Source: a virus. From it: a stretch of 26,044 nucleotides of DNA. Shown in pieces: positions 1,245-26,044 of this stretch. The notes below the pieces were generated by a model. That model searched no databases. It was not told where the DNA came from and saw only the letters and a program-made list of their open reading frames with translations. The stretch's first letter is position 1. Each line of letters starts with the position of its first letter. The stretch spans positions 1 through 26,044 of the IMG/VR virus record IMGVR_UViG_3300029922_002676; one strand, given 5' to 3'. A program made the translations under genes and the position numbers.

Positions 1245-1245
1245 T

Positions 1246-1275: not shown

Positions 1276-1291
1276 GTTTTCATGTATATTT

Positions 1292-8228: not shown

Positions 8229-8258
8229 GGAAGTATTGGTTGGTTCGCCACCGCTCCG

Positions 8259-8708: not shown

Positions 8709-8788
8709 GGCTTGAGAAAGTGATGCGTGGCCAGGGACGCGTGACGAGCGGCAGCCGGTCTGGCTTGTCACTCGTCACCCGCCACGGG
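8709..8788. repeat. Inverted junction repeat, GTGACGAG / CTCGTCAC type
   Basis: The gap contains GCGTGACGAG at the left and ACTCGTCACCCGCCACGGG at the right in inverted orientation, related to the junction repeat at 4927-4993. It can form an imperfect stem in the transcript. Confidence 0.4.
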
Positions 8789-9040: not shown

Positions 9041-9094
9041 ATTGAATGTTTAAGTTTGAATATTCTCTGCAGTTTGATTTTTGAAGCTTCCTCC
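9041..9094. repeat. AT-rich TTTGAAG-type dispersed repeat
   Basis: The gap carries AAGTTTGAATATTCTCTG followed by CAGTTTGATTTTTGAAGC. It belongs to the AT-rich family also seen at 10928-10983, 14307-14362, 15091-15142, 16302-16347, 17636-17745 and 25248-25284. Confidence 0.7.
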
Positions 9095-10051
9095 TCAGGC
9101 CGCCGCCACCGCAAAATACGCCCCCCTCACCCCGCTCGTCAGCGTCGGGGTCGCCAGCCACGCCACCTCCCCCTGCCGCAGCGCCGCGATCCCCCATGCC
9201 TGCTTCTGCTCCACCAGCGCCGCCCCGTACAAAGTCAACGGCGTGGACCCGTCCGCCCCCGTGACCGTCAGCGTCGCCCCGTTCGCCGCCCGGCTCCCCC
9301 CGCGCGCCGCCCCCGTCCCCTGCGCGTACAACGCGCTCAGAATGTTCTGCCGCGTCTGTCCCAGCGGAATCCCCCGCACCAGTCCCCCGACCGTCTTGAT
9401 CCGCTTGTTATACAGCCCGTATCGCGCCGGCACATCCTCCTCAAACGTCACCACCGGCTGGAACGTCAGCCCGTCATAAAAATCCGTGGCCGTGGCGAAC
9501 CCCGTCACACTGCCCCACGTCAGCGTGTAATTCTGCGTGATAATCCCCGCGTTCGTGAACCCGCTGTCCGCAAACGTCCCGCCCGTGTTCGCCTGCGTCA
9601 CCAGGCTGTTCGCCGCGCTCCAGTCATCGCCACTGCCGCGAATCGCCAGAAACGTCGCCGGCCCCAGCAGCGTCTTCCCCGGATGAAAATACATCTCCGG
9701 CATCTTCTCCAGCGCCACACTCGTGTAAATGTCCAGGCTCGCGTCCTGCCCGTGCACGCTCGCCGTCACATCTGTGTCCGTGAAAATGCCGCTCCCGATC
9801 GTCGGGTTCCCATAGGGAAACAGCAGACCCGCAATCGCCGTCGTCAGCCGCCCTTCCGGCGTGATATGAATCCGGTAATACAGCTCCTGGTCCCGTTTGT
9901 CCGTCAGCCCCAGGCCCGCCGCGCCCGTGTCCACGCCCGCATACATCAACTCCTGTTCGATGTGCGTGCCCGGTTTGGCATACAAACTCACCGGCGTGCC
10001 CGAATTATAAACCAGCCGCGCCGGTACCCGTTGAATTGAACTCCGTAACAT
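9095..10051 (-). CDS. Probable major tail (tube) protein
   Basis: A 318-residue protein starting at ATG 10051. It is rich in Gly, Ala, Thr and Tyr, with alternating beta segments and no membrane segment or signal, consistent with a tube-forming or structural tail protein. It comes straight after the gp37-like connector gene, where Mu-like phages have the tail sheath followed by the tube. Only one gene of this kind is present here and nothing resembles a sheath, so the tail would be non-contractile. The C-terminal third (TLTVTGADGSTPLTLYG) may be a separate surface-exposed beta domain. The call is by position and composition. Its coding strand is strongly G-rich at third positions. Confidence 0.5.
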   Translation of the reverse strand: MLRSSIQRVPARLVYNSGTPVSLYAKPGTHIEQELMYAGVDTGAAGLGLTDKRDQELYYRIHITPEGRLTTAIAGLLFPYGNPTIGSGIFTDTDVTASVHGQDASLDIYTSVALEKMPEMYFHPGKTLLGPATFLAIRGSGDDWSAANSLVTQANTGGTFADSGFTNAGIITQNYTLTWGSVTGFATATDFYDGLTFQPVVTFEEDVPARYGLYNKRIKTVGGLVRGIPLGQTRQNILSALYAQGTGAARGGSRAANGATLTVTGADGSTPLTLYGAALVEQKQAWGIAALRQGEVAWLATPTLTSGVRGAYFAVAAA

Positions 10052-10139
10052 AATGTTTTATTTGGTTGATGGTTTTTGCTTTTAAATTGCGCCCGGTGGC
10101 TCACCGGTCTTTGTTCTCTTCGTTTCCTTCTGTAAAAAA
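10052..10139. repeat. Junction repeat with CTTTGTTCTCTTCGTTTCC core
   Basis: This gap holds a pyrimidine-rich CTTTGTTCTCTTCGTTTCC segment, preceded by a small CCGGTG/CACCGG hairpin. It lies immediately 3' of the connector gene's stop on the minus strand. I take it as another dispersed host repeat. Confidence 0.35.
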
Positions 10140-10895
10140 TCAGGTGAAATTAATCGCCGCCGTGTCACTCCCCAGATACTGCACCCCGGCCGCAAAGCCG
10201 CGCGCCCGCACCGGGCCGCCGGTCGCCACCGTAAAAGGCCCGGTATACAGCACCGCCGTCGCATTCCCGCTCCACGGATGCGAATTGTCCAGCGTGTAAT
10301 AAATCGCCGTCGCCCCCGCGCAACTGATCGACACCGTCTGCGGCGCCGCCCCGCCATTCCCCTCGCCATCATTGGGCGTGATCTGCGGTCGCGGCAGTTT
10401 GATCAACGGGACCGCATCCGCCTCGCTCGCGTAAAAACTCACTCGCCCGCCGCGCAAGTTCGTGTCCGCTCCCATGGTGAAATGTGCGATTACCGGATTC
10501 CCCGGCGTCAGCGCCTGCGTGAACCCCACCGGCGTGTACAGCTTCAGCACCTTCGCCATCCGCGCCGCATAGACCCGCAATGGCACCCCCGTCCCGCGCG
10601 GACCATGATTCACCACCACATTCTCCACCAACTGCACCGTGATCGGCAGCTTCAGCGGCCCTTGTGGTAAATTCACATATTCATCCTCCGCCGATTCAAT
10701 CGGCAGCACCAGATACCCCGCCCCGAATTTGCCATCCGCGCCCGCCGCCAGGGCCGCTGTCGTCTTCGCCGCCAGCACCGCCTCCGTCGCCCCCGGTTCC
10801 ACCAGCACCCCCGGCCGCGCCGCCAGAAACGCATCCGCCTGGAGACACCCCAGAATATCCGCCTGAATCAACGGCCAAAGATCCGTGTATTGCAT
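10140..10895 (-). CDS. gp37-like tail completion protein with C-terminal chitobiase-type domain
   Basis: Started at ATG 10895 (251 residues), because the short upstream extension lies in AT-rich repeat. Residues 1-165 resemble phage tail-terminator/completion proteins: an N-terminal helix (LWPLIQADI), then beta segments with ITVQLVENVVVN and a final strand. Position after a gp36-like gene matches Mu gp37. Residues about 185-245 read YYTLDNSHPWSG, an LYTGPF segment and VRARGF, the signature spacing of the CHB_HEX_C_1 domain (chitobiase / beta-hexosaminidase C-terminal, Ig-like). Such domains are common on secreted proteins but unexpected on a tail terminator. The linker around 170-185 is Gly, Asn and Pro-rich. 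The N-terminal assignment is inferred from position; the C-terminal motif is directly visible. Confidence 0.6.
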   Translation of the reverse strand: MQYTDLWPLIQADILGCLQADAFLAARPGVLVEPGATEAVLAAKTTAALAAGADGKFGAGYLVLPIESAEDEYVNLPQGPLKLPITVQLVENVVVNHGPRGTGVPLRVYAARMAKVLKLYTPVGFTQALTPGNPVIAHFTMGADTNLRGGRVSFYASEADAVPLIKLPRPQITPNDGEGNGGAAPQTVSISCAGATAIYYTLDNSHPWSGNATAVLYTGPFTVATGGPVRARGFAAGVQYLGSDTAAINFT

Positions 10896-10927
10896 AAAAT
10901 TAAAAACCAAGTGTTTCGCTATTGTTT

Positions 10928-10983
10928 ATTGAAGTTTGATGGTTCTCTGAATTTTGAAGTTTGGATTTTGAATTTTAAGTTTG
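10928..10983. repeat. AT-rich TTTGAAG-type dispersed repeat overlapping a gene end
   Basis: The copy reads GAAGTTTGATGGTTCTCTG, then TTTTGAAGTTTGG and TTTTGAATTTTAAG. The stop codon of the gp36-like gene (10975-10977, minus strand) is inside it, so the last residues of that protein are encoded by the repeat. Confidence 0.75.
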
Positions 10984-11403
10984 CCCCAACCCATCAAAAC
11001 TCCTTGTCTCCACCCACCGTCCCCGCCGCGCCAGCCCCACCGCCCCCGGCCGGCTGGCCTTGCGGCGCGCGATCTGCAAAAAATACGCCTCCGCCTCGTC
11101 ATGCGCCGTCTTGCGCTCCGCCGTTTGCAGCCCCTGGCCCGTGGGCAAGGCCAGCAGATACTTCCAGCGCACCAGCGCGATCGCCCGGTTCTTCTCCCCC
11201 GGTGGCACCGTCCCCGCATCCACCGCATCCACCAGCCGCCCGCCATCCTCGTACGCCTGGTAAATTTGGTTCACCACCAGCGCAATAATCGCCGGCAGCG
11301 AAGTGCTCGAGGTGTCGCCCTTCGCGGCATCGCAGGCCGCCGTCTCGCTGTCATTAAACTGCGCCAGCACATCCGTCGTGGTAAGCGTGATCCAGGGAAT
11401 CAT
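10975..11403 (-). CDS. gp36-like head-tail connector protein
   Basis: A 142-residue protein starting at ATG 11403. The N-terminus (MIPWITLTTTDVLAQFND) and the helical body with a conserved-looking RAIALVRWKYLLALP stretch match the look of phage gp36/DUF1320-type connector proteins, which sit on the portal and join head to tail. The gene order capsid, connector, tail completion, tail tube is as in Mu-like phages. The last residues derive from the AT-rich repeat that supplies the stop codon, so the C-terminus may have been altered. No start-site Shine-Dalgarno is visible. Confidence 0.6.
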   Translation of the reverse strand: MIPWITLTTTDVLAQFNDSETAACDAAKGDTSSTSLPAIIALVVNQIYQAYEDGGRLVDAVDAGTVPPGEKNRAIALVRWKYLLALPTGQGLQTAERKTAHDEAEAYFLQIARRKASRPGAVGLARRGRWVETRSFDGLGQT

Positions 11404-12079: not shown

Positions 12080-13129
12080 TTAGTTAACTGCGATGATTTG
12101 GATGCCGCTCGTATGCTGCGCGTGAATCAGTTCATAGTTCTCCACCGTCAGCGCGACTTTCTTCACGCCCAGGTCCGTCACGTACACCGCGTACTCGCCG
12201 CTGCCGTGATTGCCGTTGAAGACATGGCGCACGATGTTCGAGGGATCCATCGGACCCGCGTCCTTGATCCCCGTGAAGAGCAGCACATTCTGGCCGATGA
12301 TTTCCTGCTTCGCCGTCGCCGTGCTCTGGTAGCGCTCCGCGTTCACCAGCACATTCGGCACCCCCAGCGCCACCGCCAGTTGCTCCTCCGTGTACGCCGC
12401 CGCCCGCGCCAGCGCCCCGGCGTTTAGTTCACTTTCGTAGGCATTCGCGCGTTTCAAATGCGCCTTGTCGCCGTACGCCACGTTCTGCGGATAAAAGCCC
12501 GTGCTGTCCGCAATGCTCAGAATCCGCGACTTCAGGTCCAGGTCCGGATTGCTCGAATTGTCCCACACCGTGCTCGCCGTCACCGCGGCGCTCTGGTAGA
12601 TCGCCATCGTTTCCAGAATCGTGGCGCGGTTGAGAATGTCGATCAGCCACTTCGTGTGCAGTTGCTGCCACTCGGGCTTGGACTTGATTTCGTCGCGATC
12701 CAGAATCACCGAGAGGCCGCGGTTAAAACCTTGCAGATCGCTCTTGGTGACCGTGCGCTGCCGGATTTCCGGGAAGTCAGCCAGCAGCCCGCGCTTCACT
12801 TTCGTGTAATCCACCGTTTCCCACGGCTCGAATTCCGTGTACGTCGAGAGCCGGAAAATCCGGCTGTCCGTCGGGCGGGGCGGCGCGAGGAAATCGCGCA
12901 GTTTCACCAGGCCGTTGCCCACCATGCTGTCATAGCTGGCCGCGAAGAGGGTGAGGTCTGTGATTGGTTCGGCCGTGCGCAGGATGGAATCGTTCGCCAG
13001 GCAGACCATGCCGGGCTGGAGGTTGTGATAATCATTCGCCAGGGCCACCCCCTGCGAATGGAGCGAGCGATGCAGCGCCTCGTTGTTTAAGGCAATCGCC
13101 CGCGGTGTCGGTGTTGGTATTTGGCTCAT
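12080..13129 (-). CDS. Major capsid protein (HK97-fold type)
   Basis: A 349-residue protein starting at ATG 13129. Size, position after protease, scaffold and capsid-cement genes, and composition fit the HK97-fold major capsid proteins, possibly of the group called capsid protein E. Features seen include an N-terminal helical arm, a central segment with many charged residues (VKRGLLADFPEIRQRTVTKS), a helix (ARAAAYTEEQLAVALGV) that ends in VPNVLV, and a C-terminal beta part ending in IQIIAVN. That helix followed by a V-N-V pattern is typical of the spine helix and A-domain entry of this family. No signal peptide. The product would form the shell after cleavage or release of scaffold. Confidence 0.8.
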   Translation of the reverse strand: MSQIPTPTPRAIALNNEALHRSLHSQGVALANDYHNLQPGMVCLANDSILRTAEPITDLTLFAASYDSMVGNGLVKLRDFLAPPRPTDSRIFRLSTYTEFEPWETVDYTKVKRGLLADFPEIRQRTVTKSDLQGFNRGLSVILDRDEIKSKPEWQQLHTKWLIDILNRATILETMAIYQSAAVTASTVWDNSSNPDLDLKSRILSIADSTGFYPQNVAYGDKAHLKRANAYESELNAGALARAAAYTEEQLAVALGVPNVLVNAERYQSTATAKQEIIGQNVLLFTGIKDAGPMDPSNIVRHVFNGNHGSGEYAVYVTDLGVKKVALTVENYELIHAQHTSGIQIIAVN

Positions 13130-14306: not shown

Positions 14307-14362
14307 ATTGAATTTTGGAGGTTGATTATTCTTTGGATGTTGGAGGTTAAATTTTAAAGTTT
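14307..14362. repeat. AT-rich TTTGAAG-type dispersed repeat
   Basis: The segment GTTGATTATTCTTTGGATGT is close to the copy at 25248-25284 outside the phage cluster. It fills the gap between the protease and the small coiled-coil gene. Confidence 0.65.
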
Positions 14363-15870
14363 CAAAATTGCTTCGGCAGCAATTTTGCCGCCAGCCCCGC
14401 ATACCTCGGCAGGGTCATGATGTTGTTATGCGCCCGCGCCGGATTCTGCCCGGTGGCGATGAGTTCGGCCTGGAAGGCCTGGTTGTATTCGTTCTGGAGT
14501 TGTTGCTGCTCGTTGGGCAGACCGGCGTTTTGCTTGCCGCTCTGGACCTCCTGGCCCGCGGTCTTCACCACCGTCGCCCCGCCGAGCAACCCCCGGGCCG
14601 CCAGTTCAAAGTCGGGGCTGTTGGCAAGGGTCGTGATGTGCGCGTCCCGCTGCGCCACCGTCGCCTTGCCGCGTTGGATGGCCAGGTCGGTTATGGCTTC
14701 CGCCCGGCCCTGGCGCTCGGCGTAACGCGCGCTCTTTTCATTGGTCAGCGCGGTGGCGGCGTCGATGGCCTGCTCACGGAACTGGTCGCGCTCGGTTTCC
14801 AGCGCCGTGAGGCGGTCGTTCAGGGTCTGGCGTTCATTCCCCAGCGTTGCGACGCTGGCGGTGGTGGTGGTGTGCAGTCGCTGGAGCGCTTCCAGGATCT
14901 GGGTTTCGGTGGGATTTTCGGCGTTGGCCAGGGCCGCGCCCTGGGCCAGCAGCCAGCCGGTGATTAATTTCATGTCAGATGGTTGGGGGTGTTCGGTTGC
15001 TTCCTCGTTAAGTTGGATCGCGACGCCGTCGAGGGACCCAACGCCGGATAAATTTGCCAATGCCTCCGTCCGTACTGCGCCCGCATGGAGGCTTGAAGTT
15101 TGAAGCTTCTCTGAAGTTTGAATATTGGATTTTGAATTTTCCGAATTGGCCAGCGATTCCACTCCCGAAATATTCGGAAACGGCGTGAGCGCCACGGAAA
15201 TCAATTTGAACGGCCGGCAGCGGATGGCATCAGCCAGGCCCGGGACGCGAGGCTCGGGGCGCGCGGCGTTTTGAATCGGCCGCACATACCAGAAGCTGCT
15301 GGGGAATTTCCAGCCGGCCGCCACGGCGGCTGCGCCGTCGGCGTCCAGGGCGAAATGCGCCTCGAGGCCGCGCGGGGTTTTGCGGATTTGATCCACCACG
15401 CCGATTTTGATTTTTTCGCCGCCGCCGGAGATGGCCTGCGGGTCCACCTCGGCCAGGTCGCCGTGACCCTTGTAAACGGGCACCCCGATGAAGGCGCGCT
15501 TGAGCCGGCCGAAGAGCGAATTTTCTTTCGCCAGCAAAGCCTCGGCGGCGGCGTCATCCAGCACCTGGAGAAAGCGTTGTTCGCACACCCGGCCGCCTTC
15601 GCGATAGACGCGGGTCTTGGGCCATTCGCCGTAGGGAGCAATGAGGCACCAGCCGTCCTCGGCCAAGGCCAGGGTGTTGTCCAGGGACCAGCGGCTCACA
15701 TCGGCAGCCGGGGAACCAGCGAGGCTGTTCGCCAGCGCGACGGCGTTGCCGCTTTTGGAGTGCGGCAACAAGTTGCCGCTTTGGGACTCGGCGACATGTC
15801 CCCTGGTTCTAAAGCGCGGACATGTCCGCGCACTCCAAAATGTTTGGTTCGATCGTTTGAGGGTATTCAT
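14362..15870 (-). CDS. Mu I-like prohead protease with C-terminal scaffold
   Basis: A 502-residue protein starting at ATG 15870. Residues about 70-235 carry the Mu-like protease pattern: WCLIAPYGEWP, then IGVVDQIRKTPRGLEAHFAL, the AGWKFPSSFWYVRP segment, and LISVALTPFP, which corresponds to the active-site region of Mu gpI. Residues about 330-440 are helical and rich in Gln, Glu, Arg and Ala, as in internal scaffold (in Mu the scaffold, Z, is the C-terminal part of I). Two repeats are translated in frame: the 88-bp palindromic element at residues 11-39 and an AT-rich repeat at residues about 243-260, between protease and scaffold parts. The N-terminal 45 residues are therefore probably not part of the fold. 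The gene starts 31 bp after the portal gene, leaving no room for a MuF-type minor head gene. Confidence 0.8.
   Translation of the reverse strand: MNTLKRSNQTFWSARTCPRFRTRGHVAESQSGNLLPHSKSGNAVALANSLAGSPAADVSRWSLDNTLALAEDGWCLIAPYGEWPKTRVYREGGRVCEQRFLQVLDDAAAEALLAKENSLFGRLKRAFIGVPVYKGHGDLAEVDPQAISGGGEKIKIGVVDQIRKTPRGLEAHFALDADGAAAVAAGWKFPSSFWYVRPIQNAARPEPRVPGLADAIRCRPFKLISVALTPFPNISGVESLANSENSKSNIQTSEKLQTSSLHAGAVRTEALANLSGVGSLDGVAIQLNEEATEHPQPSDMKLITGWLLAQGAALANAENPTETQILEALQRLHTTTTASVATLGNERQTLNDRLTALETERDQFREQAIDAATALTNEKSARYAERQGRAEAITDLAIQRGKATVAQRDAHITTLANSPDFELAARGLLGGATVVKTAGQEVQSGKQNAGLPNEQQQLQNEYNQAFQAELIATGQNPARAHNNIMTLPRYAGLAAKLLPKQF
14363..14387. other. Perfect stem-loop over the protease stop codon
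   Basis: CAAAATTGCT (14363-14372) and AGCAATTTTG (14378-14387) are exact reverse complements with a 5-base loop. The element includes the last codons and most of the TGA stop of the protease gene. The downstream sequence on the minus strand (AAACTTTAAAATTT) is AT-rich but lacks a solid T-run, so it is at best a weak terminator. Confidence 0.6.
15091..15142. repeat. AT-rich repeat translated in frame inside the protease/scaffold gene
   Basis: The plus-strand core is GCTTGAAGTTTGAAGCTTCT followed by CTGAAGTTTGAATATTGGA. On the coding strand it reads NSKSNIQTSEKLQTSS. It aligns closely with the copy in the portal gene at 16302-16347. Confidence 0.85.
15753..15840. repeat. 88-bp palindromic repeat, copy 1 (inside the protease gene)
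   Basis: The ends TTTTGGAGTGCG (15753-15764) and CGCACTCCAAAA (15829-15840) are perfect 12-bp inverted repeats. Inside are a GCGGCA/TGCCGC hairpin and a GCGGACATGTCCGC palindrome, with a degenerate middle arm. The length and ends match copy 2 at 20535-20622 exactly. Here it is translated as residues 11-39 of the protease. Confidence 0.9.
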
Positions 15871-15901: not shown

Positions 15902-17599
15902 TCATTCCCGATCAGCTTTCAACGTCTCCGCCGCTTTGCGCCTTTGCGTTAATTCCCCGCGTAACGCCTGTGCCGCGCGGGAATTGCCGAGGCCGGTGAT
16001 TTCCAAATGTTGTAATTCTTCATTCGGCAGGCTGTAGCCCGGGCTGGGCATGGGCAGGGTCTGGCCGTCCGCGCCTTTGGGTGCCAATCCCGCCCGACTC
16101 CAAAACGCCGCCGCATCCACTTGCGGATCGGGCATGCCGGGCGACTCAGTTTGGATCGCTCCCGGCTCCGCACCTGATGCGATGGGTTTATCCAGCGTCG
16201 CCGCGCCCGCCGGTTCTGCCGGAGCGCGGACTTCAGTCCGCTTCAACGCCCCTGCGCTCTGCTCCGCCTGAACTCCCCCACCCGCTCCATTGGAGCTTGG
16301 GGCTTGAAGTTTCTCTGAAGTTTGAATTTTGGAGTTTGAATTTTCCGCCCCCGGCGCCTCCATCCCCACCGGTGGCGTGAGGCAGGGATCGTCATTGGCC
16401 GGCACGCGCCAGCGGAAGCGTTGGTACACATCCTTCAAGGCCACCCGCAACCCCAGCGGCACCAGCGTTTGCAGCGCCGTCAAATCCTCCGCGCGATAAT
16501 CCCCCGGCGGCGGCATGAGCGCGAACCAGGCGCGCGGTTCCTGGCCAAACAAATACCGGATCATTGGCCGGTCGATGCGCTCGTTGAAAACGCCGGTGAC
16601 CCACTTCGCATCCCGCCCCAGGAAAATCCCCGATTCCTCCTTCTGAATGCTCGCCCCCACCGGCGGATGCCCCGGCCCGTTCGACCGGTCGTTCTGGTGG
16701 TGCCGCACCCCGGTGGCCAGGTCAATGCCCCGGTAACATTTTGCATACAGCGAATTGCACCATTGGACCATCGGTTCGAAGGGCAGCGAATTACGGGACG
16801 ATTGTTCGAGAAACTTGAAGATCACACTGTCGTTGTGCAGCACCGCCCCGTCGTTCGCCATGGTCTGGAGCGCGGCGAGCGCCTGATTCCATTCGTCAGT
16901 ACCTTCCTGGGCGCTGGTCTGCGCATCCAGAAAACCGCTGCCGTAGCGCGCGTTGAAGAGACCCCAGTCGCGCAGGGCGAAGGCTTTGAGCGCGAAGATC
17001 AGCGAGAGCGGGCGCATCCAGCCGGAGTTGACGGCCGTGAGCCATTCGCCGCTCACGCAGGGCTGGCCGTAGACATCGAAGATGTGTTGCAGATAACCCA
17101 GATACCCCCGCCGCGCCTCGAAGAACCACAGCGGCGTGTGCCGGAATTCCGCCGTCACCTCCCGCGCCGCCGGATTGTCCACCCGCAGCAAAATCTCATG
17201 CGCACTGTAATAAGTATCCAGGGCCGACAGTGTCTGGTAAATCAACTCGTCCGTGCCGCCCGTGGCGTCCTGGTCCAGGGCGCGCGTGGCGGTGAGATGA
17301 TCGTAGAAGTACTGGAGCGCCGCGGCATGGCGGTCCCCCGTCAGCGAGCCGTCGCTGACGATCTGCCAGTCCAGGCCGGCGGCATCCGACTTGCGCTTGT
17401 CGGAGTTCACGGCCAGCTCGGCGTCGCGCTCCAGCATCACCTCCCAGGTTTTGCCGATGACGCGCAGTTCGCCGATGCGGAAGGCGTTGAGCTGGCTGGC
17501 GAGCATGGGCATGTCCAGCTCGGGCAGCGGCGAGTAGCGGAGGCGGATGGCCCATTCGATGCGGGCTTGGTTAAAGTGGCTTTGGCCTGATGGGTTCAT
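15902..17599 (-). CDS. DUF935 / Mu gp29-like portal protein
   Basis: A 565-residue protein starting at ATG 17599. The pattern fits the DUF935 portal family of Mu-like phages: an N-terminal LERDAELAVNSDKRKSDAAG region, then HEILLRVDN with a long helical body, WFFEARRGYLGYLQ, and a C-terminal segment with NAFNERIDRPMIRYLFG-like text (VFNERIDRPMIRYLFG). The portal forms the ring at the head vertex through which DNA is packaged. An AT-rich repeat is translated in frame at residues about 418-433, beyond the core, and the remaining tail is Ala, Pro, Glu and Gly-rich. Base composition changes abruptly more than once along the gene (see findings). No Shine-Dalgarno is seen before the start. Confidence 0.85.
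   Translation of the reverse strand: MNPSGQSHFNQARIEWAIRLRYSPLPELDMPMLASQLNAFRIGELRVIGKTWEVMLERDAELAVNSDKRKSDAAGLDWQIVSDGSLTGDRHAAALQYFYDHLTATRALDQDATGGTDELIYQTLSALDTYYSAHEILLRVDNPAAREVTAEFRHTPLWFFEARRGYLGYLQHIFDVYGQPCVSGEWLTAVNSGWMRPLSLIFALKAFALRDWGLFNARYGSGFLDAQTSAQEGTDEWNQALAALQTMANDGAVLHNDSVIFKFLEQSSRNSLPFEPMVQWCNSLYAKCYRGIDLATGVRHHQNDRSNGPGHPPVGASIQKEESGIFLGRDAKWVTGVFNERIDRPMIRYLFGQEPRAWFALMPPPGDYRAEDLTALQTLVPLGLRVALKDVYQRFRWRVPANDDPCLTPPVGMEAPGAENSNSKIQTSEKLQAPSSNGAGGGVQAEQSAGALKRTEVRAPAEPAGAATLDKPIASGAEPGAIQTESPGMPDPQVDAAAFWSRAGLAPKGADGQTLPMPSPGYSLPNEELQHLEITGLGNSRAAQALRGELTQRRKAAETLKADRE
16302..16347. repeat. AT-rich repeat translated in frame inside the portal gene
   Basis: The plus strand reads GCTTGAAGTTTCTCTGAAG then TTTGAATTTTGGAGTTTGAA. 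On the coding strand it gives NSNSKIQTSEKLQA, nearly the same peptide as in the protease copy, so both copies sit in the same translation frame relative to the repeat. Confidence 0.85.
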
Positions 17600-17635: not shown

Positions 17636-17745
17636 AATTCAAAATCCAAACTTCAAACTTCAGGGAATAATCAAAATCCAAATTGCGCGCCCACGGTTGG
17701 GACTTGATGTTTGAGGTTTCTCTGAATATTGAAGTTTGAATATTC
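17636..17745. repeat. Inverted pair of AT-rich repeats between terminase and portal genes
   Basis: The left half contains ATTCAAAATCCAAACTTCAA and CAGGGAATAATCAAAATCC; the right half contains TTTGAGGTTTCTCTGAATA and TTGAAGTTTGAATATTCA in opposite orientation. The two can pair around a GC-rich centre. The right end includes the last codons and stop (17744) of the terminase gene. Confidence 0.75.
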
Positions 17746-19366
17746 ATAGGAACACCCGGGCGGTCACGCGGCCCATGCCGAAGTTGCCGGGGGTGAGGCG
17801 GGGGTTGGAGAGCGGGCTGAAGGCGACGGGGGCGGACGTGGCGGCGGCGTCGCGGAGGGCGAGGGCGAGGGCCCAGAAATGGTCGGCGTGGCCGGCCTCG
17901 GTGCGGGTGGCGGCGATGCTGACGCGGCCACCGGGGCTGACGAGGCGCTCGGGTTTGCGCAGGTCCTCCAGGGCTTCGGCATCGAGCTGGACTTCGAGGG
18001 TGAGGGTGCGGTGCTCGAAATGGGCGAGGAGGTCGGTGGCGAGGTTTTCGGTGACGCGGGCGGTCTCGGCGGCGCGGCCCTCGACACGGAGGTGGTCGTT
18101 GATGGGTTCGGTGCGGCTGAAATTGATGCCGCGCACGCGGGACCGCCATTTTTCCTGGGCGTATTCGACGAGGCCAAGGCCGAGGCCGGTCATGTCGATG
18201 CTGATGCCACGGAAGCGGGGCAGCGCGAAAAGCGGATTGAGTTGCTCCTGCTGGCGGGGCAGGCGGAGGCCGGCCATGCGGAGGAGGGCGAGGAGGCGAC
18301 GCTGGGAACCGGATTTTTCGACGACGGCGATGACGGACAAATCGCGGTGGCGGCCGACATCCTGGCCGGCGTGGAGGGTGCCCTCGGCACGGCGGAGGCA
18401 TTCGAGGGTGGCGGCGGACCAGGCTTGGTGGTCGATGGCCAGGCCGGGGCGCTCGGCGGCCTGGATGAGTTCATGGGTGAGGAGGCACATGTTCTCATCG
18501 TTGAACTGGCATTCGTAATTCTGGTCGTAGGCGCGCTTGTCGAGGGCCTGTGCGCGAGCGGCGTCGGGCGTGATGGGCTGGCGGGTATTGGCGTCGTAAA
18601 TCGGGACGCCCATTTCCCAGGCACCGGTGCGGGTGACGCGGGAGACGCGAAAGCCGCTGGTGGAGCTGAAACACTGGCCATTGACGGGGCCATCGCCGGC
18701 GCACATGCGGTAGAACATGTTGTGCTTGCCGTTGCCGGTGGAGGCAATGCGGCAGAGGAATTGGGGGTTGGCGGACAGGATGGGTTCGGCGGCCTCCCAG
18801 ATGGCGTTGGAGTTTTCGTGAAAGGCAAATTCATCGAGGATGAGGTCGCCGGAGAAGCCGCGGGCGGTGCGGGGGTTGGCGGCGAGGACTTTGATGCGGC
18901 CGGTGCGTTCGGTGTTTTTCCCGGACATAAAACTGACACGCACCTCCATGCGCATATTCTCATATTTAAGGTCGGCGGATTGATCGGTGGTATGCATGAG
19001 GATGCCCAACTGGTTGCAGACCAACTGGCACTTGAGGACGAACTCACCGCCGTTATCGCGGGAATTGGACAGGACGGTAATGAGCCAGGTGTCATTTTTG
19101 GCCAATTGGCGCATCAAGCGGTCCACGCACCAGGCGGCCAAAGTGTGGGACTTACCGATTTGTCGCGACCAGTGGAGGATCAAGATTCCTGACTTGTGAT
19201 TATCGAACACAGGAGCCTGATATGTACGGAGGTTTAGCAACCCAACGCCCAACTCGCCGGGCAACGGACTCCGGGACAGAGGAGCCGGCTGGTCCGGGGC
19301 GGACAGTGGAACCGAGGCGGAAGCGCCAGCCGGTTTGTTTTTAAATCTTTTGGCGGGAGCTTTCAT
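17744..19366 (-). CDS. Phage terminase large subunit (Mu gp28-like)
   Basis: I start the 540-residue protein at ATG 19366, which overlaps the upstream gene's stop in an ATGA arrangement; an in-frame start at 19492 would lie within that gene. The ATPase domain has a variant Walker A (SRQIGKS, residues 67-73) and Walker B (LILDEFAF, acidic D178 and E179). The C-terminal nuclease domain shows three acidic positions of the RNase H-like fold: D336 in GQDVGRHRDLSV, D391 in ISIDMTG and D495 in AGHADHFWAL. This is the complete set for a headful packaging motor. It is followed by the portal gene after a repeat-filled gap. Codons end mostly in C, unlike the tail genes. Confidence 0.92.
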   Translation of the reverse strand: MKAPAKRFKNKPAGASASVPLSAPDQPAPLSRSPLPGELGVGLLNLRTYQAPVFDNHKSGILILHWSRQIGKSHTLAAWCVDRLMRQLAKNDTWLITVLSNSRDNGGEFVLKCQLVCNQLGILMHTTDQSADLKYENMRMEVRVSFMSGKNTERTGRIKVLAANPRTARGFSGDLILDEFAFHENSNAIWEAAEPILSANPQFLCRIASTGNGKHNMFYRMCAGDGPVNGQCFSSTSGFRVSRVTRTGAWEMGVPIYDANTRQPITPDAARAQALDKRAYDQNYECQFNDENMCLLTHELIQAAERPGLAIDHQAWSAATLECLRRAEGTLHAGQDVGRHRDLSVIAVVEKSGSQRRLLALLRMAGLRLPRQQEQLNPLFALPRFRGISIDMTGLGLGLVEYAQEKWRSRVRGINFSRTEPINDHLRVEGRAAETARVTENLATDLLAHFEHRTLTLEVQLDAEALEDLRKPERLVSPGGRVSIAATRTEAGHADHFWALALALRDAAATSAPVAFSPLSNPRLTPGNFGMGRVTARVFL

Positions 19367-20013
19367 TCGGGTTGGGGCTGTTCCTCGGCAATACGACCAA
19401 ACAACTGAAACCGAATGCGGCGCATTTTTTCCTCGTCGCTGAGATTGGGGTCGCGCTGAATGGCACGCAGCTCGGGCAGCCGCTCGTGGCATTTTTCGGT
19501 TGCGTCGAACTCGTATTTGTCGCGGTCGAGCAAATAGCGTTTAACCTGGGTGTGGGCGCGGATGGTGGTAAGCCCAAGGCCGAAATCGGCGCGGGCGAGG
19601 GCTTCGAAATAGGCGTGCCGGATTACCTCATCGCGAACTTTATCCACGGTCCAGTCGGGGTGTTGCTGTCTAATCTGGTCTTCATTGGCCTGGAGACGCT
19701 CCGCCGTCTGTTGACGTTCCACCTGGTCCAGATCCCAGGTGCGAAAATAAGTCAATTGTTTGTCGCAATCCAAATGGATGCCAAACTGATCCAGCAATTC
19801 CTGGCGCTTGGTTTCCTGCGTACCACCAGTGGCAAATTTCTGGCGCCAGGACTCGCGGTCCGCCTCAGAAAAAGTCTTGGTCCAAAGGTCTTTCAACTTG
19901 CCCATTTCCGGATTTTTGCTGGGCTGCCGTTTCTTAACCCGGCCGCGCTTGTTCAAAGCCAGGAGGATGCTTTTGGCGGGTGGTGGCGGAGAATTTGGAT
20001 CGGCGGTTTTCAT
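19363..20013 (-). CDS. Putative terminase small subunit (gp27-like)
   Basis: A 216-residue, highly charged, mostly helical protein starting at ATG 20013, just 15 bp after the winged-helix-like gene and overlapping the start of the large terminase by 4 bp. It has a Lys/Arg-rich N-terminus, a long helical centre with YFRTWDLDQVERQQTAERLQ, and a C-terminal helix. Mu has gp27 (DUF3486) in this position, thought to be the DNA-recognising terminase subunit. I see no residue signature that proves the family; the call rests on position, charge and translational coupling. Confidence 0.6.
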   Translation of the reverse strand: MKTADPNSPPPPAKSILLALNKRGRVKKRQPSKNPEMGKLKDLWTKTFSEADRESWRQKFATGGTQETKRQELLDQFGIHLDCDKQLTYFRTWDLDQVERQQTAERLQANEDQIRQQHPDWTVDKVRDEVIRHAYFEALARADFGLGLTTIRAHTQVKRYLLDRDKYEFDATEKCHERLPELRAIQRDPNLSDEEKMRRIRFQLFGRIAEEQPQPE

Positions 20014-20277: not shown

Positions 20278-20405
20278 AAATTTATTTTCAATTTGGCCGG
20301 CATGGCGCGCTGCGCCGTCCCCGCCCGCGCGGCAGCCGGCGGAACGAATGTGGTGAGTCGTCCCTTCGCCAGGTCTGCCGCCGGCCGGCAATTGGGAAAT
20401 CGTGA

Positions 20406-20482
20406 TTCGGAGCGCGGCGGCCGCGCCGCTTCGGCAGGTCGGTCAGTGGTTGATCCAAGCCCGCGACCGCGCGCGCTCCGAA
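20406..20482. repeat. 77-bp palindromic element with TTCGGAGCGCG ends
   Basis: The 11-bp terminal arms are exact reverse complements. The interior is GC-rich with a GCGGCGGCCGCGCCGC dyad near the left end. It differs in sequence from the 88-bp family but has the same design: short perfect ends and internal palindromes. No second copy lies in this window. Confidence 0.6.
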
Positions 20483-20534
20483 AATGGTTGGTGGGTGGCT
20501 GATGCCGGATGCTTGGTGAGCGCCGATGGCGAGG

Positions 20535-20622
20535 TTTTGGAGTGCGGCAGCAAGTTGCCGCTTTTGGACTCGATGACATGTCATCGAGTTCCAAAGCGCG
20601 GTCATGCCCGCGCACTCCAAAA
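20535..20622. repeat. 88-bp palindromic repeat, copy 2 (intergenic)
   Basis: Ends TTTTGGAGTGCG and CGCACTCCAAAA are identical to those of copy 1. Three internal arms are visible: GCGGCA/TGCCGC, a perfect palindrome CTCGATGACATGTCATCGAG at 20569-20588, and GCGG/CCGC. Together with the outer stem this gives a four-stem, cloverleaf-like fold. It lies in the gap between the membrane/coiled-coil gene and the winged-helix-like gene. Confidence 0.9.
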
Positions 20623-20674
20623 TGTTCGCATCCGTGTTCATCGGTGTCCATCCGTGGTTCATGCCTGTCCGTGG

Positions 20675-21076
20675 TTAAAATTTATTCACATAGTCATCCG
20701 CCGCCGGCAGCTTGGCCCCCACCTGGCCGGCGATGGACGCGATCCCCACGAGCACGCGCTCGAAGCGGGCGTTGATGTGCCGGAGGGTCCGCGCGCGGTC
20801 CTCCTGGATGGAGCGCAATTCGAGGTCATGCGCCTCCAGCCGGCGTTCCAATTCCGCCAGGCGGGCCTCGGTGGCCTCGTGGTTGTAGCGGCGCGGCGCC
20901 TTGCGCACTTCAATCGGCGGATTGTCATTCAACCGCGTCGGCTCCGGCCGCCGCAGATGCTGGGCAATCCAGATCACCGCCCCCGCCGCCCCCATCAGCA
21001 CGAGCAGCGACATGCAGAAGTACTTCCAGAACGAGTCCGGAATCGCATCGATGGTTTGGGCCTGGGCGAGGGTCAT
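20675..21076 (-). CDS. Membrane-anchored coiled-coil protein (gp25/DUF2730-like)
   Basis: I start the 133-residue protein at ATG 21076, four bases after the lipase stop. Residues 16-38 form a single transmembrane helix (FWKYFCMSLLVLMGAAGAVI) and residues about 66-110 a coiled coil (ATEARLAELERRLEAHDLEL). This layout matches the DUF2730/gp25 protein of Mu-like phages and also that of some spanin-type lysis proteins. The stop codon lies inside a dispersed repeat. Position directly after the lipase makes a role in lysis plausible; the topology cannot be decided from sequence alone. Confidence 0.6.
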   Translation of the reverse strand: MTLAQAQTIDAIPDSFWKYFCMSLLVLMGAAGAVIWIAQHLRRPEPTRLNDNPPIEVRKAPRRYNHEATEARLAELERRLEAHDLELRSIQEDRARTLRHINARFERVLVGIASIAGQVGAKLPAADDYVNKF

Positions 21077-21080
21077 AAAA

Positions 21081-21959
21081 TCAAAGCGGAAAGCGGGAAA
21101 CCTGGCCGGGCGACGGTGGGTTGGCGACGGTTGTTTCCGCTGGCCCGCCTGCCCGCGTTCCGCCTGGGGTTTCAAGCTGATTCAGTGCGTTGACGTATCC
21201 CGCCATGAAATGATCGGTGATCAGCACGTCGTCCAGGCGGCGGTAAGCCCGGTACAGCCCGAGGCCATCGGACACGAGCCGTCCGATGAACGAGGGATCC
21301 AGCACCAGCTCCCCCACGGCATTGATCAATGCCATCTCACCCGCGTGCTTATAACCCAATAGTACTCCCGGCACACGCGGCACGATGTCGTTCTGGTTTA
21401 CCGTCCGGTATGTCTTTGCTCCGAGTAAAGACGAATAATGGGTGGCAAAGGTGCGGTCGCCCACCCGGGGCTGGCCGAAGGTGTAGATGCTGTGCACCGG
21501 CAGGCCCTGCGCCTGCAAAAACCAGGCGGCCAGCACGGCCAGCGCGCCGCCCAGGCTGTGGCCGGTCAGGAGGAGGACCCGGGAGGCTTTGGGCTCTGCG
21601 CCTTGGACTTTGGGCGGGACGAGGAAGGCGAGGAGGTCCGGGAGGATGGAGTTGATGGCGGTCAGGAAGCCTGCATGCACCCGGGCCGGCGAGCCGGGCA
21701 GCGGCCGGAGGGGGAACTCCGCATCGGTAATCCAATCCCGCAGGCTGGCGGTGCCGCGAAAGGCAATCACGGTGCAATCGTCATAAGTGGTGACCGTCAC
21801 ATGGGTGCCCGTAGTCTTGTTCTGGCAAGTGATGATCCCGCCGGGTGGAAGGGGCTCGGAATAAATCCCCGGGTCATACGCCGCCAGGCTCGCGGCCGCC
21901 AGTGCCCGGGCATTGGCCAGCACGAAGCCGGGTTGGTTGAGGCTGAGGGAGGAGGTCAT
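21081..21959 (-). CDS. Class 3 lipase (alpha/beta hydrolase) in the lysis position
   Basis: A 292-residue protein starting at ATG 21959. It has the hallmarks of the lipase class 3 family: a strand plus oxyanion turn FRGT (67-70), the nucleophile elbow GHSLGG (133-138, Ser135), FGQPRVGD after the next strand, Asp191 in NDIVPRVP as the likely acid, and His250 in TDHFMAGYV as the likely base. Members hydrolyse acylglycerols or related lipids. There is no signal peptide or membrane segment, so export would need a helper or membrane breakage. In Mu-like gene order, the endolysin lies just here, before the gp25-type gene. It could therefore serve host lysis, but a metabolic or virion role cannot be excluded. 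Stop and next start are 4 bp apart. Confidence 0.85.
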   Translation of the reverse strand: MTSSLSLNQPGFVLANARALAAASLAAYDPGIYSEPLPPGGIITCQNKTTGTHVTVTTYDDCTVIAFRGTASLRDWITDAEFPLRPLPGSPARVHAGFLTAINSILPDLLAFLVPPKVQGAEPKASRVLLLTGHSLGGALAVLAAWFLQAQGLPVHSIYTFGQPRVGDRTFATHYSSLLGAKTYRTVNQNDIVPRVPGVLLGYKHAGEMALINAVGELVLDPSFIGRLVSDGLGLYRAYRRLDDVLITDHFMAGYVNALNQLETPGGTRAGGPAETTVANPPSPGQVSRFPL

Positions 21960-22020
21960 GGGAGTGATGAGGGGCGAGATTGGTGCGGTTTAAAAGCTGC
22001 TTCGTTGGCTTCGGTTAAAA

Positions 22021-22530
22021 TCAAGGTTTCCCGGCGGCGGCGCTGGCGGCGGCCCCGATGACGTTGCCAACGGCGGTGCCACCGGCGTTGATGGCCGCGA
22101 CGGCATTGGTGGTGATCGTCGCGCTCACGTTGCCCACGGTAAAACTGTGCGCGCCGCCCAGCGCCCCCTGGTTCGTCACCCCACTGACCACCTGGCTCGC
22201 TGCCGGATCGGTGAAGAGAAAGGTGCCGCCGCCCCGGCTGCGATCCGTCCACGTCTCGCGATAGGCCACAAAAATGCGCGGACCGTTCGCCAGCCAACCG
22301 GTGCCGGTGTTCGTCTCCCCGGTGAAGGCAAACTCCGTGTACGCATTGGTCTCGCCCCCCGGCAGGCTCAGCCCCCCCACCGGTTCAATGACCCGCCAGT
22401 CCGGCGGCACCGCCGCGCCGTACTTGACCAGCTCATGCGCGGTGGTGGAGGTTTTGGAGAAATGCGCGCAGCCGTTGCCCACGGCGGCGGCGGACAGAAG
22501 GCACAGAATGGATGGAATCGCTTTTTTCAT
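22021..22530 (-). CDS. Lipoprotein-like secreted protein, first gene of the phage cluster
   Basis: I start the 169-residue protein at ATG 22530; the frame is open to 22746, but the extra residues would be encoded by repeat DNA and would hide the signal. The N-terminus is a signal peptide (KK, hydrophobic ILCLLSAAAV) with Cys21 in GNGC, a loose lipobox. The middle is beta-type (FVAYRETWTD, GTFLFTDP). The C-terminus has a glycine-zipper-like GTAVGNVIG followed by Ala/Gly, a type seen in membrane-active proteins. It precedes the lipase by 61 bp. Function unknown; a part in lysis or in the cell surface is possible. Confidence 0.6.
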   Translation of the reverse strand: MKKAIPSILCLLSAAAVGNGCAHFSKTSTTAHELVKYGAAVPPDWRVIEPVGGLSLPGGETNAYTEFAFTGETNTGTGWLANGPRIFVAYRETWTDRSRGGGTFLFTDPAASQVVSGVTNQGALGGAHSFTVGNVSATITTNAVAAINAGGTAVGNVIGAAASAAAGKP

Positions 22531-22729: not shown

Positions 22730-22767
22730 ATGATGCAATTCATCATGTGAGTAGTATGCCACTACTC
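22730..22767. promoter_or_regulatory. Two adjacent dyads, possible operator sites
   Basis: ATGATGCAATTCATCAT (22730-22746; perfect 6-bp arms) is followed by GAGTAGTATGCCACTACTC (22749-22767; perfect 7-bp arms). They lie about 200 bp upstream of the first gene of the minus-strand cluster. The size and symmetry suit dimeric repressor sites, but no promoter elements are obvious and a dispersed repeat is an equal possibility. Confidence 0.35.
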
Positions 22768-22778
22768 GCAAAAAAAGC

Positions 22779-22795
22779 CCGTTTCCCGGAAACGG
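22779..22795. promoter_or_regulatory. Palindrome CCGTTTCCCGGAAACGG, possible binding site
   Basis: Perfect 8-bp arms around one central base. A very similar site lies at 22924-22944, about 147 bp away, which favours a protein binding site over chance. Confidence 0.4.
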
Positions 22796-22840
22796 AAAAC
22801 GTCAAAACGGTCAAAAAAGTGACGGTCAGCGGTTCGCAAA

Positions 22841-23618: not shown

Positions 23619-24173
23619 TCATCGCCGGCGGAACCGCCGCGCCAGCAGGCCCAGGCCGCCGACCAGCAGCCCCGCCAGCATCGGCGCGGGCTCCGGCGTG
23701 GGCGTGAGCGAGACATCGTCGAGGTAGGTATAAGCCGGATCATTGGCAGTAATGAATTCCAGGGTGTCGCTCCCCGTGCCCGTGACATTGACCGACAAAT
23801 CCTGATACACATTATAGGGGCCGGTATCCAGTTCGGAATACACGGGCGCGCCGTCCCAATCCACCACCAGGCTCGTGGTGGGTGTGCCATTGCTGATAAA
23901 ACGCGCGAAACTCAGGGTGTAAGCCTCCCCCGCCGTGGTCGCAACGGTCTGCGAAAGGGTGTCCGGATTGCGGCTGTATCCCGCAATTTGCGCGGCATAG
24001 TTCCCGCTGTTGACCGGCGACGTGACAATATACTCCGGAAACGAGTTGGCGCCGGTGGTCCAGCCCGTGAAATCACCCGTCTCGAAGCCGCCATTGACGA
24101 TCAGATCCGCGCGGGCCGGAGCGGCCAGCGCCAGCGCCGCAGCGCCGGATAGCAGCATTAATTTGGTGTTCAT
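23619..24173 (-). CDS. PEP-CTERM sorting domain protein with galactose-binding-like domain
   Basis: A 184-residue protein starting at ATG 24173. Residues 1-22 are a signal peptide with an ARA cleavage site. The mature N-terminus DLIVNGGFETGDFTGWT is the characteristic opening of secreted jelly-roll (carbohydrate-binding-like) domains, and the C-terminal strands end with YLDDVSLTP, also typical. Residues about 159-184 are a PEP-CTERM signal: PEP, a hydrophobic helix (MLAGLLVGGLGLLA) and a RRFRRR tail, which directs processing by an exosortase and display or release at the surface, often with exopolysaccharide. It has its own promoter candidate and terminator. Confidence 0.9.
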   Translation of the reverse strand: MNTKLMLLSGAAALALAAPARADLIVNGGFETGDFTGWTTGANSFPEYIVTSPVNSGNYAAQIAGYSRNPDTLSQTVATTAGEAYTLSFARFISNGTPTTSLVVDWDGAPVYSELDTGPYNVYQDLSVNVTGTGSDTLEFITANDPAYTYLDDVSLTPTPEPAPMLAGLLVGGLGLLARRFRRR

Positions 24174-24290
24174 AACATGGTTGGTGTTCTGCGCTATGCT
24201 GGTGCATGAGTTTTACCTGTGTTATTCCCCTCCCTTGCCCGGGACACGCAGTCCCCGCCCACCGGGGCGATGTGCGTTGTATCCCTTCAC

Positions 24291-24319
24291 ACTATACATC
24301 CAAACCGGGAAAAATGCAA
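24291..24319 (-). promoter_or_regulatory. Sigma70-type promoter candidate for the minus PEP-CTERM gene
   Basis: On the minus strand TTGCAT (24319-24314) and TATAGT (24296-24291) are separated by 17 bases, close to consensus. The transcript would have a leader of about 110 bases. Confidence 0.55.
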
Positions 24320-24462
24320 TTGTAAATTAGCAATTAAACATTGACAAGCAGTTCTGCTAATAACTGATGCGGGTGCATCGAAATCAATTAGAACCCACAA
24401 AACCGACATTTGACTTTCGCTCCCCATGGCCGTCAAGGATGTTAAAATCTGCCAAATACCGC

Positions 24463-24489
24463 TTGACTTTTGCTGATTATTAGTATTAA
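24463..24489 (+). promoter_or_regulatory. Weak promoter candidate for the plus PEP-CTERM gene
   Basis: TTGACT at 24463-24468 and TATTAA at 24484-24489 have a 15-base spacing, shorter than ideal. Confidence 0.3.
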
Positions 24490-24575
24490 ACAAACTATAA
24501 CAAGCCTCACCCCCGGCAAAATTCGTGATCTGGCCGGGGAAAACCGGGGATAATCAAGCGTTAGAAAAGCAACCC

Positions 24576-25118
24576 ATGACATTTATGAGCAAAAACGTTT
24601 CCGCCCTCCTTGCCACCCTCGTGCTGGGCTTCGCCGCCCCCGCGCAGGCAGATTTAACCTGGGCCTGGGCCTTTTCCGGCGTGTTCGGCTTTCGGGGCAG
24701 CGCGGTTTCCGGCGAGGGCACCCTCACCACCGGACCGCTCAACGACGGTGCCTACCCGGTCACCAGCATAGACGGCTCCTTTGCCGGCAGTTCCATCTCG
24801 GGTTTGAGCGTCAATTATTCTTTTCATGGCCTGGTTCCCGACAACACCTTGTACACCCCGGGAAACAATGGCTTGGACAGCCTCCAGCTCAGTTCGACGG
24901 GCCTGTCTTTTAGCATCACCGGCGGCGATGTGATCAATCTGTTTGATGAAGCTGGCTATGCGGCCAGTGATCTGAACAATCAATTTCTGGAAGCCGGCAA
25001 CTTTATTGCCATCGAGATCCCGGCCGCCGCCCCGGAACCTTCCCAGGTCGTTTCACTGCTTTCCCTAGCCGGGATCGGCGGGGCCGGCCTGCTGCTCCAG
25101 CGCCGCCACCGCAAATAA
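24576..25118 (+). CDS. PEP-CTERM sorting domain protein
   Basis: I start at ATG 24576 (180 residues); the ATG at 24585 is equally possible, and the longer frame from 24525 would put a polar stretch before the signal. The signal peptide has the hydrophobic core ALLATLVLGFAAP and AQA cleavage before Asp. The middle part, with repeated Gly/Ser/Leu-rich strands such as GLSFSITGGDVINLF, has no recognised domain; such beta-only proteins are common among PEP-CTERM substrates. The C-terminus has the PEP motif (AAPEPSQVV), a hydrophobic helix (SLLSLAGIGGAGLLL) and QRRHRK. It faces away from the other PEP-CTERM gene. Confidence 0.88.
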   Translation: MTFMSKNVSALLATLVLGFAAPAQADLTWAWAFSGVFGFRGSAVSGEGTLTTGPLNDGAYPVTSIDGSFAGSSISGLSVNYSFHGLVPDNTLYTPGNNGLDSLQLSSTGLSFSITGGDVINLFDEAGYAASDLNNQFLEAGNFIAIEIPAAAPEPSQVVSLLSLAGIGGAGLLLQRRHRK

Positions 25119-25247
25119 CCCCGGCCCACCACCGCCGCCCGCATCAACGCCCGTCGTCCCGCGTGGCGACGAATTGGTGTTCTCCGCATTTATCCTGCCC
25201 ATTCATCCACCAGCCCCCCCTGATAAGAATCGCCAATCCCCCACTGG

Positions 25248-25284
25248 TTTGAAGTTTGATTATTCTCTGGATGTTGGATGCTGG
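25248..25284. repeat. AT-rich TTTGAAG-type dispersed repeat, outside the phage cluster
   Basis: It reads TTTGAAGTTTGATTATTCTC then TGGATGTTGGATGCTGG. This copy in host-type DNA shows that the family is not confined to the phage genes. Confidence 0.7.
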
Positions 25285-25402
25285 CGCTTGGTTCTTTCCT
25301 CTTTCCCTCCGCCCGGCTAGGATGGGTCAAACTAAATGAACCGTAACAATCCAGCCCCCGGCCGCGTCCAGCATTACTGAATACCGGATCAGAAGTCCCC
25401 GC

Positions 25403-26044
25403 ATGCCCAACGTGTCCCCCGCCCCGGCCGCCGGTCTGCCCGCGCAAACAGATTTGTTTGCCGCGACCGCCCCGCCGTCGGTTCCGCCGCCGTCAGCCCC
25501 GCCGCCGTGCATCCTGCGCGGCCCCGCCCGCCCGGACCTCCTCCGCCATGAGACCCTCGGCGATCTCCTCGCCGCCACCGCCCGCCGCCGGCCCCGCCAT
25601 CCCGCCCTCATCTGGGGCCAGCGCACCGTCACCTACGCCGAACTCGAATCCGACAGCCAGGCCATCGCCCGCAGTCTGGCCGCCCAGGGAGCCGCCCCCG
25701 GCAAAATCATCGGCCTCTTCCTCCCGCGCGGCGCCGACTTGCTCATCGCCCAGGCCGCCATCACCCACAGCACCGCCGCCTGGCTCCCCTTCGATGCCGA
25801 AACCCCGCTCGACCGCGTCAAAACCTGTCTCGATTCCGCCGGCGCCCTGGGCCTCCTCACCACCCGTGACTGGCTCCCGCGCCTCGCCGGCCTCCCGGTC
25901 CCCGTCTGGGCGGTCGAAGACCTCCGCGAGGACCCGCCGCTCGCCACGATCCCTCCGCCGCAGGGCACCCCCGATGACCCCGCCTATGTGATTTACACCT
26001 CCGGCTCTACCGGCGTGCCCAAGGGCATCGTCCTCAGCCACCGC
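25403..26044 (+). CDS. Adenylate-forming enzyme, NRPS-type adenylation domain (5' part only)
   Basis: The frame is open from ATG 25403 to the right edge (214 codons). After a Pro/Ala-rich leader (residues 1-37), the adenylation fold begins at about 45. Core motifs are visible: A1-like TYAEL (77-81), A2-like AAWLPFDAETPLDR (125-138), and A3 YTSGSTGVPKG (198-208), the phosphate-binding loop. Such domains activate an amino or aryl acid as its adenylate for loading on a carrier protein. Motifs A4 to A10 and the specificity pocket lie beyond the window, so the substrate and whether this is an NRPS module, a loading enzyme or a stand-alone ligase cannot be told. The start codon has no strong Shine-Dalgarno. 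Confidence 0.85.
   Translation, partial: MPNVSPAPAAGLPAQTDLFAATAPPSVPPPSAPPPCILRGPARPDLLRHETLGDLLAATARRRPRHPALIWGQRTVTYAELESDSQAIARSLAAQGAAPGKIIGLFLPRGADLLIAQAAITHSTAAWLPFDAETPLDRVKTCLDSAGALGLLTTRDWLPRLAGLPVPVWAVEDLREDPPLATIPPPQGTPDDPAYVIYTSGSTGVPKGIVLSHR

Follow-up and report, generated by a model that had tools for sequence, protein, structure and literature searches.

In the textbook account, lysis of a didermic host requires a holin, an endolysin and a spanin, and to our knowledge mycobacteriophage LysB offers the only known analogy for a membrane lipase as a standard part of lysis. What, then, does an intact lipase gene do at the head of a gene cluster ordered like that of phage Mu? In Mu this place holds the SAR endolysin gp22, the spanins gp23/gp23.1 and the releasin gp25 (PMC9239132). 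The DNA analysed here, referred to as the window, is an entire 26,044-bp record from a virus collection (IMGVR_UViG_3300029922_002676), classed as linear. Genes were identified throughout as simple ORF calls, and several of the records compared with the window are fragments. The features of the window are as follows.

23619-26044: host chromosome, encoding exported, PEP-CTERM-like proteins and, at 25403-26044 on the plus strand, the first part of an AMP-binding/NRPS-like enzyme (TIGR01733, E = 1.7e-32)
22730-22801, minus strand: block conserved ahead of the cassette, comprising a terminator-like hairpin (22780-22801) and the palindrome ATGATGcaattCATCAT (22730-22746); presumably regulatory
22021-22530, minus strand: lipoprotein, 'lpp', 169 aa, with a signal peptide, Cys21, a conserved W-D..GGG core and a Gly-zipper-like C-terminus
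21081-21959, minus strand: class 3 lipase, 292 aa, leaderless, catalytic triad Ser135-Asp191-His250
20675-21076, minus strand: protein with an N-terminal transmembrane (TM) segment and a coiled coil at the place of Mu gp25 (releasin), from position and alignment; RR just past the TM segment
20029-20277, minus strand: small winged-helix-like protein at the Mu gp26 position; this slot cluster was found at 90/123 terL loci
19363-20013, minus strand: gp27-like protein upstream of TerL, from position and tblastn matches in relatives
17744-19492, minus strand: TerL, terminase large subunit (Terminase_6N/6C, PF03237/PF17289); the true start is probably internal
15902-17599, minus strand: Mu-type portal, DUF935 (Portal_Mu, PF06074, E = 4.2e-37)
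14362-15870, minus strand: Mu I-type protease/scaffold (Mu-like_Pro, PF10123, E = 1.7e-6)
12080-13129, minus strand: probable major capsid protein, from position and a weak match to PHROG 1005 (E = 0.034)
1570-11403, minus strand: connector and tail genes g142, g256, g318, g170, g327, g695 and g1157, with colinear orthologues in genome G324
3-1391, minus strand: start of a tail-fibre-like protein truncated by the end of the record, ORF of at least 463 aa with a D-A-A-S-K-Q-Y-V-D tract; partial match in G324

The Mu-like order proposed in the initial annotation of this DNA was borne out by Pfam for TerL, portal (PF06074) and protease (PF10123); the capsid, gp36 and gp37 are assigned from synteny. 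As in the Mu lysis cluster, the three-gene cassette of the window stands just before genes in the order gp26-gp27-TerL-portal-protease-capsid, and the lytic-enzyme gene is followed by one for a predicted TM/coil protein with two basic residues past its TM segment. Unlike in Mu, the enzyme is a lipase and not a muramidase, no spanin was recognised, and the protein at the gp25 position is not a DUF2730 protein by Pfam. A promoter scan found no sigma-70-like promoter in the cassette region. The hairpin/palindrome block upstream of the cassette is also conserved in G324, as seen by alignment and a terminator scan. A spacer of about 390 bp (20281-20674) separates the TM/coil gene from the winged-helix gene, which nearly abut in relatives; it contains a 62-bp imperfect inverted repeat (20517-20640) and is partly conserved in G324.

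The lipase matches Lipase_3 (PF01764) with E = 1.2e-31 and 110 bits against a curated cut-off of 22, and PHROG 21992 ('esterase/lipase') with E = 1.9e-25. A profile built from seven sequences, those of the window lipase and six of its relatives, hits class 3 lipases of fungi whose structures are solved, with E-values down to 1.5e-33. In the aligned lipases the GHSLG motif with Ser135, D191 and H250 is invariant; profile and triad together place the protein among the class 3 lipases. The first reading of the locus, an intact GHSLGG lipase between a lipoprotein-like and a TM/coil protein, holds in its coordinates and gene content. With the Thermomyces and Rhizomucor enzymes (PDB 1dt3, 4tgl) it shares the fold family, the triad and the order of the catalytic residues; unlike them, it is leaderless and encoded in a phage late operon. 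Judging from its sequence, it would hydrolyse lipid esters or membrane phospholipids. By a crude hydrophobicity rule, a signal or TM segment is absent from 88 of 89 phage lipases, which suits an enzyme released by a holin or by lysis.

With TerL and the lipase family as queries, about 150 viral loci were obtained; the lipase loci among them were gathered by the lipase search itself, so that their frequencies are no estimates. Among records with both genes in the stretch fetched, 30 non-redundant IMG/VR records besides the window have the lipase 0.45-2.8 kb upstream of terL and on the same strand (30/30); one further record, L157, has a weak terL match on the strand opposite to the lipase. Between the two genes lie the TM/coil gene at the gp25 position, the winged-helix gene and the gp27-like gene, and the triad is intact in all 31 terL-linked lipases, the window included. 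This recurrence confirms the lipase/terminase co-occurrence for which the initial annotation had advised a search, and rules out that the lipase is a chance neighbour of phage genes, the objection it had raised against itself.

The divergence of the lipase was uncorrelated with that of terL (Mantel r = -0.03, p = 0.67), which rules out co-inheritance of the two and indicates that the lipase is exchanged between phages and tied to the slot rather than to a lineage. L004 and L228 are relatives without the lipase; its place is taken in them by an unrelated GHSNG alpha/beta-hydrolase, which suggests a need for esterase-type activity at this position. The loci related to that of the window are found in Verrucomicrobia. 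In isolated phages (a Cylindrospermopsis phage, P-SSM2, vir526 and SCTP-2) the lipase has non-lysis genes as neighbours. Such neighbours, in cyanophages as in the other isolates, rule out that every phage class 3 lipase is linked to lysis.

Cargo may occupy the slot as well, namely a Dam-type methylase in L003, L004 and L138. A DNA adenine methylase-like gene lies between the lipase slot and the TM/coil gene in L003 (7881-8669), L004 (7733-8626), L138 (7258-8031) and L287 (8824-9603). A small hydrophobic protein of 72-91 aa is encoded behind the lipase or in its stead, before the TM/coil gene, in L004 (7635-7853), L063 (8342-8578), L132 (6815-7090) and L287 (9600-9833). It is a holin candidate and is absent from the window.

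An exported envelope protein is encoded just upstream of the lipase in nearly all lipase/terL loci. The lpp family of the window accounts for nine phages (window included), a barrel for thirteen and a third family, the lipoprotein 'CATA', for six; at most of the remaining lipase loci the partner is of other exported types. Cys21, W94 and GGG100-102 are invariant in the alignment of the nine lpp members. Structure prediction, advised in the initial annotation, was informative for the barrel of the relatives, an eight-stranded protein with a confident model (pLDDT 81), and unusable for the window lipoprotein, whose AlphaFold model is unreliable (pLDDT 50) and for which no sequence relative was found in the PDB; a structure-based reading of this lipoprotein was dropped because the model was too poor. 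The barrel resembles the small outer-membrane barrels Ail (the nearest solved fold), OmpA and OmpX, as well as phage-encoded barrels.

Pairs of this kind could also be morons, i.e. lysogenic-conversion genes, in which the integrated element expresses an envelope protein and a lipase that alter the host surface or keep other phages out, their storage near the lysis region being incidental. Lambda keeps lom and bor near its lysis region, and Lom presumably belongs to the same class as the Ail/OmpX-type barrels that the partner of the relatives resembles. Envelope proteins also occur at the same position where there is no lipase (a barrel in L063, a lipoprotein in L009), the lipase moves independently of terL, and the region is variable and accommodates methylases. 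A surface role is, however, at odds with the absence of a signal peptide in 88/89 lipases, which suits an enzyme released at lysis; the lipase moreover heads a late operon, with its stop codon 4 bp from the start codon of the gene at the gp25 position, and is replaced at the same place by an unrelated alpha/beta-hydrolase. We consider a moron pair unlikely, if worth keeping in mind. The regular order of envelope protein before enzyme recalls, in addition, the lipases of type VI secretion systems, which are likewise preceded by their immunity proteins. The lipase might then be a toxin from which the lipoprotein shields the producer, or a virion-associated enzyme injected at entry; both are very improbable, given that its gene lies in the lysis slot and not in the tail module and that the partners of this single lipase family come from at least three unrelated families.

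The third protein of the cassette has a predicted TM segment and coil with RR at their junction, a topology derived from its sequence. It did not match the DUF2730 profile (PF10805), which rules it out as a DUF2730 (Mu gp25) protein by Pfam; the same profile matches one of 17 syntenic proteins. The label 'gp25-like' given to it at first thus rests on its position and predicted TM/coil topology. In phages with DUF2730, an endolysin gene is almost always close by (PMC9239132). Neither of the lipase neighbours in the window matched the PHROG i-spanin or o-spanin families; the spanins beside the lipase of L177 were recognised.

Seven Pfam families were searched for peptidoglycan hydrolases, NLPC_P60 in 19 records and GH108, Amidase_2, Phage_lysozyme, SLT, M15_3 and Hydrolase_2 in 77. 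No domain of the seven was found in the 26-kb window, so that neither the muramidase or amidase reported missing at first nor any other canonical endolysin, which would have spoken against the original proposal, is recognised there. Nearly all lipase-bearing Verrucomicrobia phage records were likewise negative for the seven families. These results favour the initial view that the lipase takes the endolysin's place and is the sole lysis effector. Close lipase-less relatives, however, also lack a recognisable endolysin (GH108, Amidase_2, Phage_lysozyme, SLT, M15_3 and Hydrolase_2). The absence is therefore clade-wide rather than peculiar to lipase phages, and is no proof that the lipase replaced an endolysin.

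Moreover, lipase and endolysin can occur together: in L165 and L169 a GH108 endolysin is followed by the lipase, and in L172 and L207 the lipase is followed by a small lipoprotein and an M15_3 endopeptidase, the L207 peptidase being assigned by its likeness to that of L172. In L177 and other large T4-like contigs the lipase adjoins recognised Rz/Rz1-type spanins. Cases of these types put the lipase within lysis modules beside the endolysin, nearer to the place of the spanins. In the record of L003 (G002), a lipase phage, the tail module includes a gene for an NlpC/P60 protein, and in distant Mu-type relatives lysozyme-like genes (GH108, Hydrolase_2 or others) lie at a distance of about 2 kb from terL. 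A 142-aa protein is common to L009 (7897-8325), which is lipase-less and where it adjoins gp25, and to L158 (2-406), where it adjoins the lipase; it is a candidate endolysin of a new type. As a papain-like endolysin, the L009 protein has a weak Pfam hint (papain-like MOA C-terminal domain, 0.045) and no PDB match. Since an intact sacculus would also be expected to hold the cell together, the lipase as sole effector is improbable. It is likely that the endolysin of the window's phage group is unrecognised or encoded elsewhere, i.e. that a peptidoglycan hydrolase is hidden somewhere.

An additional, membrane-disrupting lysis enzyme with a spanin- or LysB-like role fits the lipase better than an endolysin substitute. 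What remains of the lipid-directed lysis cassette proposed at the outset is its link to the lysis region, its exported partner and its leaderless lipase; the substitution for the endolysin is not supported. LysB is a cutinase-like serine alpha/beta-hydrolase that cuts mycolyl-arabinogalactan esters in mycolata (PMC6116114). The window enzyme is, like LysB, a G-X-S-X-G serine hydrolase in a lysis module, and LysB is proposed to strip the outer lipid barrier; unlike LysB, it is not cutinase-like, and as a member of Lipase_3 and PHROG 21992 it falls outside the LysB family. Verrucomicrobia are, besides, without mycolic acids. In the literature searched, which leaves out most subscription journals, we found no comparable lipase among the lysis cassettes for Gram-negative hosts.

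Is the element a phage at all, as was assumed at first? Within one Verrucomicrobia order, 29 of 320 genomes encode the lipase family, and genome G324 carries the cluster of the window in the same gene order. Identities between the two are 70% for the lipoprotein, 57% for the lipase, 74% for the TM/coil protein, 76% for the winged-helix protein, 40% for the gp27-like protein, 76% for the portal, 69% for the protease, 89% for the capsid and 66-89% for most tail genes, g327 being poorly conserved. TerL is only 30% identical (window 17744-19492; L283, the orthologous G324 locus, 7800-9197), which shows an apparent exchange of TerL between the two loci and continuing contact with phages. The AMP-binding/NRPS-like host gene lies upstream of the lipoprotein gene in both, with 83% amino acid identity, and on its other side the G324 cluster is bordered by chromosomal genes including those for 6-phosphogluconolactonase and phosphomannose isomerase and accA. 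This shared host flank rules out that the window is a complete phage, and it is probably not an ordinary one; the comparison points instead to a phage late-gene block fixed in the chromosome, with no early module. The host neighbour itself (window 25403-26044; L283 14552-18625) is an NRPS-like enzyme, 1357 aa long in G324, that combines AMP-binding and carrier-protein domains with a hexapeptide-repeat domain at its C-terminus.

Seven relatives (L002, L005, L007, L142, L287, L290 and L291) have transposase-like genes a few kb upstream of the lipase; these are not named by Pfam, and the copy in L291 adjoins a TniB-like ATPase. Neither their homologues nor an early module was found in the 26-kb window or in G324, where the DNA examined spans 47.5 kb around the cluster. 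Such a loss would suit a decaying prophage remnant with a cargo lipase of no present function. A remnant of this age should, however, show stops or frameshifts. All ORFs of the cluster are intact in both species at dS of 0.58-1.23 (0.59 for the host neighbour), and dN/dS is 0.09-0.38 over 15 genes: 0.24 for the lipoprotein, 0.27 for the lipase, 0.14 for the portal, 0.16 for the protease, 0.09 for the capsid and 0.10-0.25 for the tail genes tested. Decay is thus quite improbable. It is also unlikely that two transposable phages inserted independently at a single site and both lost the same modules, and a domesticated late-gene prophage block, possibly akin to a gene transfer agent, appears to be the simplest reading.

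Taking these observations together, we favour, with some reserve, the view that about 20 kb of late genes, descended from a transposable siphophage of the Mu type, have become fixed in a Verrucomicrobia chromosome. The window would hold one end of this block, whose first operon (lipoprotein, lipase, TM/coil protein) would be an egress cassette. The leaderless lipase would be made in the cytoplasm and reach the envelope late in the cycle, let through by the TM/coil protein and perhaps by other membrane damage as well. Guided by the envelope protein, it would then hydrolyse membrane phospholipids, most likely those of the outer membrane, alongside an unrecognised or host-supplied peptidoglycan-cutting activity, until the envelope fails and lets the particles out. 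A lipase module recurring in dozens of Mu-type phages, regularly paired with an envelope protein and in some phages swapped for an unrelated hydrolase, would add an enzymatic route for breaking the Gram-negative envelope, and hints that Verrucomicrobia and their viruses may break it partly by attacking membrane lipids.

RcGTA and CcGTA are gene transfer agents of Alphaproteobacteria (PMC6209664, PMC13236601), and CcGTA is released without a recognised holin-endolysin pair (PMC13236601). The block shared by the window and G324 resembles them in being a compact head-tail-terminase block at a fixed chromosomal site, shared here by two species only, under purifying selection and without replication, integration or transposition genes in the G324 contig and the window record. 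It differs from them in its Mu-type ancestry and in carrying a putative lysis cassette of its own as the first genes of the cluster, and it is known from the genes of two species. We found no gene transfer agent of Verrucomicrobia in the literature searched. A copy fixed in two species is a concrete candidate for one. It is a bolder and doubtful step to suppose that a Mu-descended agent of Verrucomicrobia, kept at this fixed site, would release its particles by a lipase-led envelope-lysis cassette rather than by a recognised set of holin, endolysin and spanin, and that active Mu-type phages of the phylum would use the same lipase module.

Separately, a homologue of the Mu-type major capsid protein, 28-31% identical to that of the window, was observed among host genes in six related small genomes (G339-G344), at L324 2763-4327, L325 2460-4024, L326 10928-12475, L327 3419-4423, L328 2289-3323 and L329 161-1724. 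It is mostly preceded by a g188-like gene, with no other phage genes in the flanking DNA examined, and is perhaps a domesticated, encapsulin-like shell.
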